DNA from: an uncultured Geobacteraceae bacterium
GTDB taxonomy: Bacteria; Desulfobacterota; Desulfuromonadia; Geobacterales; Pseudopelobacteraceae
Direction of reading: 5' to 3'
Assembly (NCBI GenBank): GCA_903939115.1
Contig: CAJAFV010000046.1
Coordinates: 1 to 64,000 of the forward strand
DNA: 64,000 nucleotides
Part shown: positions 33,304-35,625 of the stretch, in pieces
Layout of the letters: every line of letters begins with the position of its first letter
Numbering within the stretch: the first letter of the stretch is position 1
Translations under genes and position numbers: made by a program
The notes under the pieces: generated by a model
The model's input: only the letters and a program-made list of their open reading frames with translations
What the model was told of the DNA's origin: nothing
The model's database searches: none

Positions 33304-33447
33304 ATGATCTGACCGGGGTTGCGTTGAGACACTGACAAACTGCGCACCCCATCTTGAAGAACCAGTTGGGAGACTCCGCCGGAGTATTTGGTGCCGCGTG
33401 GATCGGGCAGACTGCCACAGGATGACAATAATGATCAGGGAGCGGAA

Positions 33448-34248
33448 ATGACAGCGTACAGTGACTATTTACGGGAGGCAGTAAGTGCGGCCCGAATTGC
33501 CGGACAGTATCAGAAGTCGCGTTTCGCCTCAACTCTGGCTATAGAGATGAAAGGTGACAAGGATTTGGTGACCGAGGTAGACAAGGAATCTGAACGGTTA
33601 ATTGTCGAACATCTGCTCTCTCGCTTTCCCGGTCATGATATTATTGCTGAGGAAGGTGCTTACCTTCATGCTGGTTCTCCCTGCCGCTGGATCATTGACC
33701 CGGTTGACGGCACGACAAACTATGCCCACGGATATCCCTGGTTCTGCTCCTCGATTGCGCTTGAAGTTGAAGGAGAGCTGGTTGTCGGGGTAATCTATAA
33801 TCCGATTTATGATGAACTCTTTACGGCATTGAAGGGAGAAGGCGCATATCTGAACGGCAACCGACTGTCAGTATCCACCCGTATGCCCCTGAGCAATTCA
33901 CTCCTTGGCACCGGTTTCCCGTATGATTGCGCCACAGACCCAGCCAACAATTTTGCTAATTTCATCACCTTCCAGAAGAGTGCCAGAGGAATTCGCCGGG
34001 CTGGTGCCGCCGCACTTGACCTGGCCTATGTGGCTGCGGGACGGTTGGATGGTTTCTGGGAACTCAAGCTGAAAGCATGGGATGTGGCAGCAGGAGTCCT
34101 GATGATCCGTGAAGCGGGCGGTGTCGTAACGACCTTCGATGGTTCGACCTACGATGTTTTTAACGACAAGATAGTGGCCAGCAACGGCTTGATCCACGAT
34201 AGTATGGTAGCTACGTTGGCAGCGGTTGCTGCCGGTGTGGTCGGCTGA
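33448..34248 (+). CDS. Inositol-1-monophosphatase family protein (SuhB-like)
   Basis: A 266-residue protein from the ATG at 33448, preceded by AGGGAG. It carries both family signatures: WIIDPVDGTTNYAHG with metal ligands and WDVAAGVLMIREAGG near residue 210, plus IIAEEG for the first metal glutamate. It hydrolyses inositol monophosphate or a related sugar phosphate with magnesium and is inhibited by lithium in characterised relatives. It precedes the selenoprotein-like gene by 13 bp. A longer frame from 33388 is unlikely. Confidence 0.93.
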   Translation: MTAYSDYLREAVSAARIAGQYQKSRFASTLAIEMKGDKDLVTEVDKESERLIVEHLLSRFPGHDIIAEEGAYLHAGSPCRWIIDPVDGTTNYAHGYPWFCSSIALEVEGELVVGVIYNPIYDELFTALKGEGAYLNGNRLSVSTRMPLSNSLLGTGFPYDCATDPANNFANFITFQKSARGIRRAGAAALDLAYVAAGRLDGFWELKLKAWDVAAGVLMIREAGGVVTTFDGSTYDVFNDKIVASNGLIHDSMVATLAAVAAGVVG

Positions 34249-34261
34249 AAAGGAGGATAAT

Positions 34262-34864
34262 ATGAGCAAAATGCCCGTTATGGAGGTTTTCTTCGACTAC
34301 GTCTGACCCTGGTGTTACCTCGGTGCCGTGCGTACCGACCGCTTGCACAAGGAATATGGAGTCGAAATGCAGATGAGAGTATTCCCCCTGCACCCGGAAA
34401 CACCGGAGGAAGGGATGGAACTATCAGAAATGTTTGCCGGACGCGAGGCGATGATTGCAGCCATGCAGACCAGACTCACACAGGTTGCCGCAGCGGAGGG
34501 CCTTCCTCTGATGCTGCGGACACGCACGTACAACAGCAGACGCGCTCAAGAACTGGGAAAATGGGCTGAGTCACAGGGAGCAGGAGAGTTGTTCCATCAA
34601 GCCGTCTACCGGGCCTATTTCGTCGATGGCATCAACATCGCTTTAATAGACGAGTTGGTCGTCATCGCTGAATCAATTGGACTTCCAAATGTCGAAGCGC
34701 GAAAGGTTATCGAAACGGGGAGCTTTGCCGCTGCAGTCGATGCCGACTGGCAACTATCGAGAGAGTTGCGGGTAACTGCTGTTCCCACTCATCTTTATGA
34801 AGGCAAGAGATTGGCGGGGTTTGGAGCCTATGAAGATTTCGAGCGCCTGATTGGGAAAAGGTAG
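34262..34864 (+). CDS. DsbA/FrnE-like thioredoxin-fold protein with in-frame TGA (probable selenoprotein)
   Basis: Translation from the ATG at 34262 (AGGAGG 8 nt upstream) gives MSKMPVMEVFFDYV, then TGA at 34304-34306, then PWCYLGAVRTDRLHKEYG and on to 34864. DsbA-family 2-hydroxychromene-isomerase-like proteins have DxVCPWCYLG here, so TGA sits exactly at the first active-site cysteine (residue 15), giving UPWC. The rest (VFPLHPETPEEGME, NSRRAQELGKWA, VTAVPTHLYEG with the cis-proline) is a complete 200-residue protein. A SECIS-like hairpin follows the TGA. I read it as selenocysteine; a TGC-to-TGA error is the alternative. It would act as a cytosolic thiol-disulfide oxidoreductase. Confidence 0.78.
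34307..34338 (+). promoter_or_regulatory. SECIS-like hairpin after the in-frame TGA
   Basis: TCGGT (34320-34324) and ACCGA (34334-34338) form a 5-bp stem around a 9-nt loop GCCGTGCGT. The stem begins 14 nt after the TGA and its loop contains GU, as bacterial SECIS elements need. The spacing falls in the accepted range. The stem is short, so support is moderate. Confidence 0.5.
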
Positions 34865-34953
34865 AATTGTATGAACAAACAGCAGTGACCATTACTTGAC
34901 GAGCGAGACTTGCAACATAGTCCCGTGTCGGCAACATAAACCGGAGGTACTCA

Positions 34954-35625
34954 ATGAAAATACTCGCCATAATGGGCAGTCCGCGCGGGATGCAAGGGAA
35001 CACTGGTCGCCTTCTGGAAGAAGTCCTTGCAGGGGTAGAATCTTTCGGGGCTGAAACGGAAATCCTTTCTCTGAAAACCCTTGATGTCCAACCATGCGTT
35101 GCATGTGATGTCTGCCACAAGACCGGGGTCTGCAACATCAATGATGACTACGAGTTCATTAAGGACAAACTCCTTGCTTGTGACGGCTTCATCCTGGCCA
35201 GCCCAAACTACATCTTCAGCGTCACTGCCCAGATGAAAGCGCTTTTTGATCGCTGTAACGGCCTGATTCATTGTATGGCGCTGGAGGGAAAGTATGCCGC
35301 TATGGTCGAGACATCGGGCGGTGGTGAGGACGATGAAGTGATCTCTTATATGAGCCGATTCGTTAACACCCTTGGGGCTTGCTCTGTCGGAGGGGTCGGG
35401 TCGGCTATCGCTGGAGTCAGAACCTTTCCCGATGAAGAAAACCTCTATGCCAAAGCCCGTGACCTTGGGCAGGAACTCTGCCAGAGCATTAAGGACAAAC
35501 GGGTTAACCTTGAGCAGGATGCGTTTCGGGAAAATTTCAAATCAAGGATGACTGGCCTTGTGGATATTATGCAAGAATACTGGCCATTCGAGCGGGAATA
35601 CTGGCAGAAGAAACTGTCGAGGTAG
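34954..35625 (+). CDS. NAD(P)H-dependent FMN reductase-like iron-sulfur flavoprotein
   Basis: A 223-residue flavodoxin-fold protein with GSPRGMQGNTGRLLEEV at the start (FMN phosphate loop), CVACDVCHKTGVCNI near residue 48 and SPNYIFSVTAQMKALFDR. The four clustered cysteines (CxxCxxCxxxxxC) resemble iron-sulfur flavoproteins, so a 4Fe-4S cluster next to FMN is likely. Its physiological partner is unknown. It follows the selenoprotein-like gene by 89 bp. A good GGAGG site precedes the ATG at 34954. Confidence 0.88.
   Translation: MKILAIMGSPRGMQGNTGRLLEEVLAGVESFGAETEILSLKTLDVQPCVACDVCHKTGVCNINDDYEFIKDKLLACDGFILASPNYIFSVTAQMKALFDRCNGLIHCMALEGKYAAMVETSGGGEDDEVISYMSRFVNTLGACSVGGVGSAIAGVRTFPDEENLYAKARDLGQELCQSIKDKRVNLEQDAFRENFKSRMTGLVDIMQEYWPFEREYWQKKLSR

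Follow-up and report, generated by a model that had tools for sequence, protein, structure and literature searches.

A reading frame that continues past an in-frame TGA may be broken, may begin further downstream or may use the TGA as a sense codon. This question is raised by a frnE/dsbA-like gene in the stretch of DNA analyzed here (the window, 64,000 nucleotides), whose TGA stands in place of an active-site cysteine. A sequence-only reading of the locus had concluded that it encodes a selenocysteine (Sec)-containing oxidoreductase. We consider, with strong confidence, that this is a genuine selenoprotein gene, predicted to insert Sec at the TGA. The grounds are the reading frame, the exchange of TGA and Cys codons among copies, a conserved and covarying stem-loop, the Sec machinery of the genome and the predicted fold of the protein, from which we infer Sec insertion, cellular location, catalysis and role. 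What looks like a gene interrupted by a stop almost certainly yields an intact redox enzyme, with UGA read as selenocysteine.

A TGA Codon at the Active Site of a DsbA-Like Protein

Table 1. Features of the selenoprotein locus and its neighbors (window coordinates).
Feature	Position	Strand	Remarks
Inositol monophosphatase family, upstream neighbor	33388..34248	+	Pfam PF00459, E 4.4e-71
AGGAGG ribosome-binding site	34251..34256	+	5' of the ATG at 34262; seen in sequence
frnE/dsbA-like selenoprotein gene (predicted)	34262..34864	+	coding part 34262-34861 (200 residues), then TAG stop reaching 34864; UPWC active site
In-frame TGA, codon 15	34304..34306	+	first position of CPWC; read as selenocysteine (predicted)
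Bacterial SECIS candidate, 7-bp stem	34320..34338	+	strands 34320-34326/34332-34338; loop 34327-34331, CGUGC
NADPH-dependent FMN reductase family, downstream neighbor	34954..35625	+	Pfam PF03358, E 1.5e-26

The Pfam DSBA domain (PF01323) is matched straight across the TGA (residues 8-194, E 3.9e-31, with TGA translated as Cys), and in the alignment with FrnE of Deinococcus radiodurans the CPWC motif has its first Cys opposite the TGA. Both observations bear out the sequence-only reading, which had described intact protein on either side of codon 15 and had placed the TGA on that cysteine of DsbA-like enzymes. The gene contains a single Cys codon besides the TGA, that of Cys18. Of the 17 loci listed, 12 have a GGAG at the matching upstream position.

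A TGA with an open frame on either side is weak evidence when taken alone, because a loose filter over the 64-kb window returns 119 open frames with a TGA inside, 8 others of which also carry a UxxC motif. This locus is set apart from such chance cases by homologous sequence spanning the TGA, by TGA/Cys exchange, by purifying selection downstream and by covariation in the stem.

Exchange of TGA and Cysteine Codons

The codon was inspected in 84 loci which, after removal of one repeat and of two whose sequence does not reach the site, leave 81 copies including that of the window. TGA occupies the site in 76 of these and a Cys codon in five (TGT in L012; TGC in L096, L097, L102, and L104), while neither TAA nor TAG occurs there in any of the 81. 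The 76 TGA copies come from 72 genomes of the class and from a gene remnant in genome G003. A scan of named genomes, whose 43 loci share some records with the 81-copy set, gave 35 TGA and 8 Cys forms. The alternation of TGA and Cys codons among relatives, proposed earlier as a check, is therefore present: an in-frame UGA lies within a conserved coding region that has Cys homologs at the same position. L012 (Cys) and L013 (Sec) both show 90% identity to the window protein.

A Conserved Stem-Loop Downstream of the TGA

Thirteen nucleotides separate the UGA from the stem, whose first base is therefore number 14 after the codon, and the loop contains GU, just as had been noticed in the window. Across an alignment of 57 nt counted from the TGA in the 76 TGA copies, 98.3% of the 532 cells are paired; all seven pairs form in 67 copies and six pairs in nine. 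Five of the seven pairs have changed on both sides, a number reached in 1 of 500 shuffles, and the 33 cells changed on both sides (shuffled mean 8.8) were reached in none of the 500. Kinship among sequences can beat such shuffles without any structure; however, the drop is large when the partner strand is slid by 1-3 columns, pairing then falling to 12-46%, with 0-3 cells changed on both sides except for 15 at +3. RNAalifold, unaided, recovers five of the seven pairs. The G at 34328 in the loop is invariant in all 76 copies. When 137 four-fold sites are ranked by third-position entropy over 73 Sec copies, four of the five lowest values fall in codons 20-23, and codons 24-25 are within the lowest 11.

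The fold energy of the stem in the window is unremarkable (z -0.39; matched by 55 of 200 shuffles), and an Rfam search of 34200-34900 at E up to 1 gave no match. The SECIS candidate was judged from the alignment of copies rather than from a ready bacterial SECIS model, and what emerges from the alignment is a SECIS-like element conserved by covariation. The stem, the loop G, and the frozen third positions agree with the bacterial SECIS elements outlined in the available part of one survey, namely a stem-loop immediately 3' of the UGA with a small apical loop containing a G (PMC1088965).

Cys copies retain the structure to varying degrees. L012, L096, L097, and L102 form 6, 7, 5, and 4 of the seven pairs, respectively, and the distant Cys copies L104, L149, L150, and L155 form three. 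The stem does not strictly track Sec, because L096 and L012 keep 7 and 6 pairs.

Selenocysteine Machinery and the Decoding of UGA

All four genes of the Sec pathway, selA, selB, selC, and selD, are found in the genome of the window, as the selenoprotein reading would have it. The matches for selA (609 bits), selB (346 bits), and selD (390 bits) are all over cut-off, and tRNA-Sec (selC) scores 72 bits, with the anticodon TCA assigned by ARAGORN. One contig (C70) holds selC, selB, and selA inside a 6-kb span. Across the class, co-occurrence with selA carries little information because 237 of 277 genomes match this gene. A selA match is present in 65 of the 72 genomes that hold a TGA copy; in G131 it is weak (1.4e-9), and a tRNA-Sec was found in that genome. 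The search gave no selA match in the other seven (G024, G230, G236, G111, G116, G118, and G121). Parts of the pathway were found in several of these: selB and tRNA-Sec in G230, selB in G236, where the tRNA match falls slightly short of cut-off, tRNA-Sec in G121, and tRNA matches under cut-off only in G111 and G118. At E 1e-40, selB was not matched in G024, G111, G116, G118, G121, or G131, and G024 and G116 showed no match to selA, selB, or tRNA-Sec. Completeness is 96% for G024 and 63-81% for G111, G116, and G118.

The TGA copy of G024 (L011) is 91% identical to that of the window, though no selA, selB, or tRNA-Sec was found in that genome. One missing contig could explain this, as selC, selB, and selA cluster within 6 kb in the genome of the window; or the gene may be a selenoprotein gene that outlived its machinery.

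The G024 copy also lends something to the view that UGA is read in another way, through near-cognate read-through with Trp or Cys, the stem serving some other role, and the case for Sec insertion is in any event an indirect one. Against this stand the complete Sec machinery in the genome of the window, the choice of Cys as exchange partner at a catalytic site, and the apical-loop G in 76 of 76 copies, as in the bacterial selenoprotein genes described in the available part of PMC1088965. Such decoding is thus very unlikely.

Selective Constraint Around the TGA

Constraint is evident on both sides of the codon. Compared with its four nearest copies, the window gene shows 3' of the TGA a dN of 0.05-0.06 against a dS of 0.42-0.55, a dN/dS of ~0.1, and the eight codons 5' of it differ by 0-2 residues per pair in 15 pairs of near copies. 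The latter bears on a second reading, that translation does end at the TGA and a shorter protein is made from a later start, for example a GTG at 34328, from which the frame is open for 178 residues. Neither the first strand nor either of the two active-site positions would be part of that product, and AGGAGG precedes the ATG at 34262, not the GTG. With the conserved codons 5' of the TGA, these points led to rejection of an internal start, to which we grant a very slim chance. A pseudogene or a sequencing error, in which the TGA would be a genuine nonsense mutation of a gene that encodes Cys, is rejected as exceedingly improbable: degenerate copies of the family do occur (about the first 50 codons in G003; C-terminal pieces in G030 and G039), but the TGA is shared by 76 of 81 copies and never replaced by TAA or TAG, a covarying stem directly follows it, and dN/dS downstream is ~0.1.

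Distribution and Evolution

A first homolog set covered 58 genomes, that of the window and its near relatives, of which 18 matched at E 1e-8, some as pieces only. At E 1e-15, 74 of 277 genomes of the class match and 72 of the 277 carry the TGA form in one or more copies; the two that match without it are G032 and G200, both with Cys, the latter distant. Named carriers among the 43 loci include Geobacter argillaceus (two copies), Pelotalea chapellei, Geomonas limicola, and Geomonas silvestris. TGA forms also occur in metagenome-assembled genomes (MAGs) labeled Alphaproteobacteria, Gammaproteobacteria, and Myxococcota. L144, L145, L146, and L153, from MAGs labeled Alpha-, Gamma-, or just Proteobacteria, combine a TGA with a similar stem, which in L144 and L146 reads GGTACCGTGAGTATC; their presence there suggests transfer or mis-binning.

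Copy number varies. Three genomes have two TGA copies each (G036, L014/L027; G047, L016/L029; G051, L017/L028), and three others have one TGA and one Cys copy (G235, G236, and G259). In one relative (L026 in G003; L154) the stretch that remains, about the first 50 codons, includes the TGA and stem and is flanked as in the window, by an inositol monophosphatase gene upstream and an isochorismatase-like ORF downstream; this copy is a decaying remnant. L031 (G039:C2:257710-257838) is a C-terminal piece with a TAG; an intact copy with TGA lies ~1.2 kb away, and the piece is probably a broken duplicate.

A tree was drawn of 84 Sec and 8 Cys rows, 92 in all, with the midpoint as root for drawing. 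On it the Sec/Cys label requires five changes, at least four of them forced by supported branches; L104 and L155 sit on long branches and their placement is unsure. L012 (Cys) adjoins L013, and L096, L097, and L102 (Cys) fall within a group that holds seven Sec rows. Under the midpoint root, these placements would suit changes from Sec to Cys. There is about an even chance that the clade is a long-lived Sec-first enzyme, in which the Sec form is the rule and the Cys forms of G032, G235, G236, and G259 arose from it repeatedly. The stems of these near Cys forms keep 6, 5, 7, and 4 of the seven pairs, respectively, and if the Sec-first history is true they offer a natural series of SECIS decay following Sec loss. 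It would also run contrary to the general evolutionary trend from Cys to Sec stated in the abstract of PMC1794560.

Predicted Structure, Gene Context, and Proposed Function

A structure model built from 89 sequences has a mean pLDDT of 95.4; an earlier one, from 9 sequences (pLDDT 49), was set aside. The best solved relatives by sequence are D. radiodurans FrnE (E 7e-18) and Streptomyces SCO1869 (E 1.5e-12), and the family profile likewise finds D. radiodurans FrnE (E 6e-35). For the predicted structure, Foldseek and VIA-align 2 rank FrnE first, with TM 0.87-0.92 by query length, and this best match has a Z of 26.7 and an rmsd of 1.9 over 200 residues. SCO1869 comes second (Z 25.5), followed by, among others, 2-hydroxychromene-2-carboxylate isomerases and GST kappa (Z 20.9-22.3). 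Sequence and fold both confirm the FrnE label given in the sequence-only reading. Invariant across the 89 rows are Asp12, Cys/Sec15, Pro16, Cys18, Pro45, Leu132, Pro175, and Gly186. Val174-Pro175 presumably marks the place of the cis-proline loop, with Pro175 at the cis-proline position.

Insertion of Sec by SelB acting with a stem-loop is known from other bacteria, and the conserved parts found here point to the same mechanism. SelB carrying Sec-tRNA-Sec would bind the stem-loop that begins 13 nt past the UGA, so that Sec is inserted instead of termination. The product would be a probably cytosolic thiol/selenol-disulfide oxidoreductase of the FrnE kind with a DsbA fold, in which Sec replaces the first Cys of CPWC; no hydrophobic leader is apparent by eye at its N-terminus. 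For a UxxC protein the expected chemistry is attack of the selenolate, here at position 15, on a disulfide or another electrophile, followed by resolution of the selenenyl-sulfide, here by Cys18. Most likely the enzyme serves cytosolic disulfide reduction or isomerization, perhaps under oxidative stress.

The gene begins 13 nt after the end of the inositol monophosphatase ORF, a spacing that suggests the two are possibly co-transcribed. Neighbors were compared between the window and 38 of the 43 named loci. An inositol monophosphatase-like ORF lies upstream in four of the 38, and an FMN reductase-like ORF occurs in the flanks of six, on either side. Gene context gives no role because no neighbor is general across these 38 loci.

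A gene finder that halts at the TGA would miss this enzyme or misplace its start, in Geobacter and relatives included. In the NCBIfam library searched, no model recognizes the selenoprotein above cut-off, with no match at E 0.001 and two below cut-off at E up to 10. The covarying SECIS candidate and the Sec/Cys pair L013/L012 make a clean system in which to ask what Sec buys an enzyme of the DsbA fold.

Comparison With Known Systems

The closest known protein is D. radiodurans FrnE (PDB 5cnw, 5cp1), the best match by sequence and fold, which carries CPWC at the same place. The window protein differs in its predicted Sec for the first Cys, in its length (200 residues against 260) and in lacking the C-terminal CXXXXC of D. 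radiodurans FrnE. This last difference is not decisive, since some FrnE proteins lack CXXXXC: in the available part of PMC8945050 FrnE proteins are predicted to be cytoplasmic, and the motif is present in many, not all. More distant are the 2-hydroxychromene-2-carboxylate isomerases and GST kappa, which share the DsbA-type fold but are a weaker match than FrnE (2.1e-14). The enzymes of these two groups are not known to carry a CXXC pair.

UxxC selenoproteins of DsbA type, by contrast with the member described here, are already known. They have been in print since the Sargasso Sea survey of 2005, which in its available part lists nine sequences under COG2761 (PMC1088965), and recur in the accessible portions of later inventories: a DsbA-like TGA cluster including Dde_1263 (PMC1914089), 'DsbA 1' with UxxC (PMC2398784), 'DsbA-like protein 41, 45', figures taken as organisms and genes (PMC5029168), a DsbA-like selenoprotein in the tables of PMC9312934 and 'DsbA-like protein form 1' with PF01323 in an inventory of 2026 (PMC13188914). 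Like these, the window protein has a PF01323 domain with Sec first in UxxC and a stem with an apical-loop G directly after the UGA; the assignment to the published family, whose representatives include NIP15863.1, is made on domain and motif. The family occurs in Deltaproteobacteria, members being given for Anaeromyxobacter dehalogenans and Desulfovibrio desulfuricans (PMC1794560). Desulfotomaculum reducens is listed there as well, while the selenoproteomes of three Geobacter species include none in the available part of the same paper (PMC1794560). In the literature searched, no paper has selenoproteins or selenocysteine together with FrnE as its subject, and neither the window member nor its spread in the class was found in print. 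The earlier description of a 'new selenoprotein' accordingly holds for the member and fails for the kind. What is added to the known family is the member itself, its spread through 72 of 277 genomes, a covarying SECIS candidate and the nesting of Cys forms within the Sec forms.
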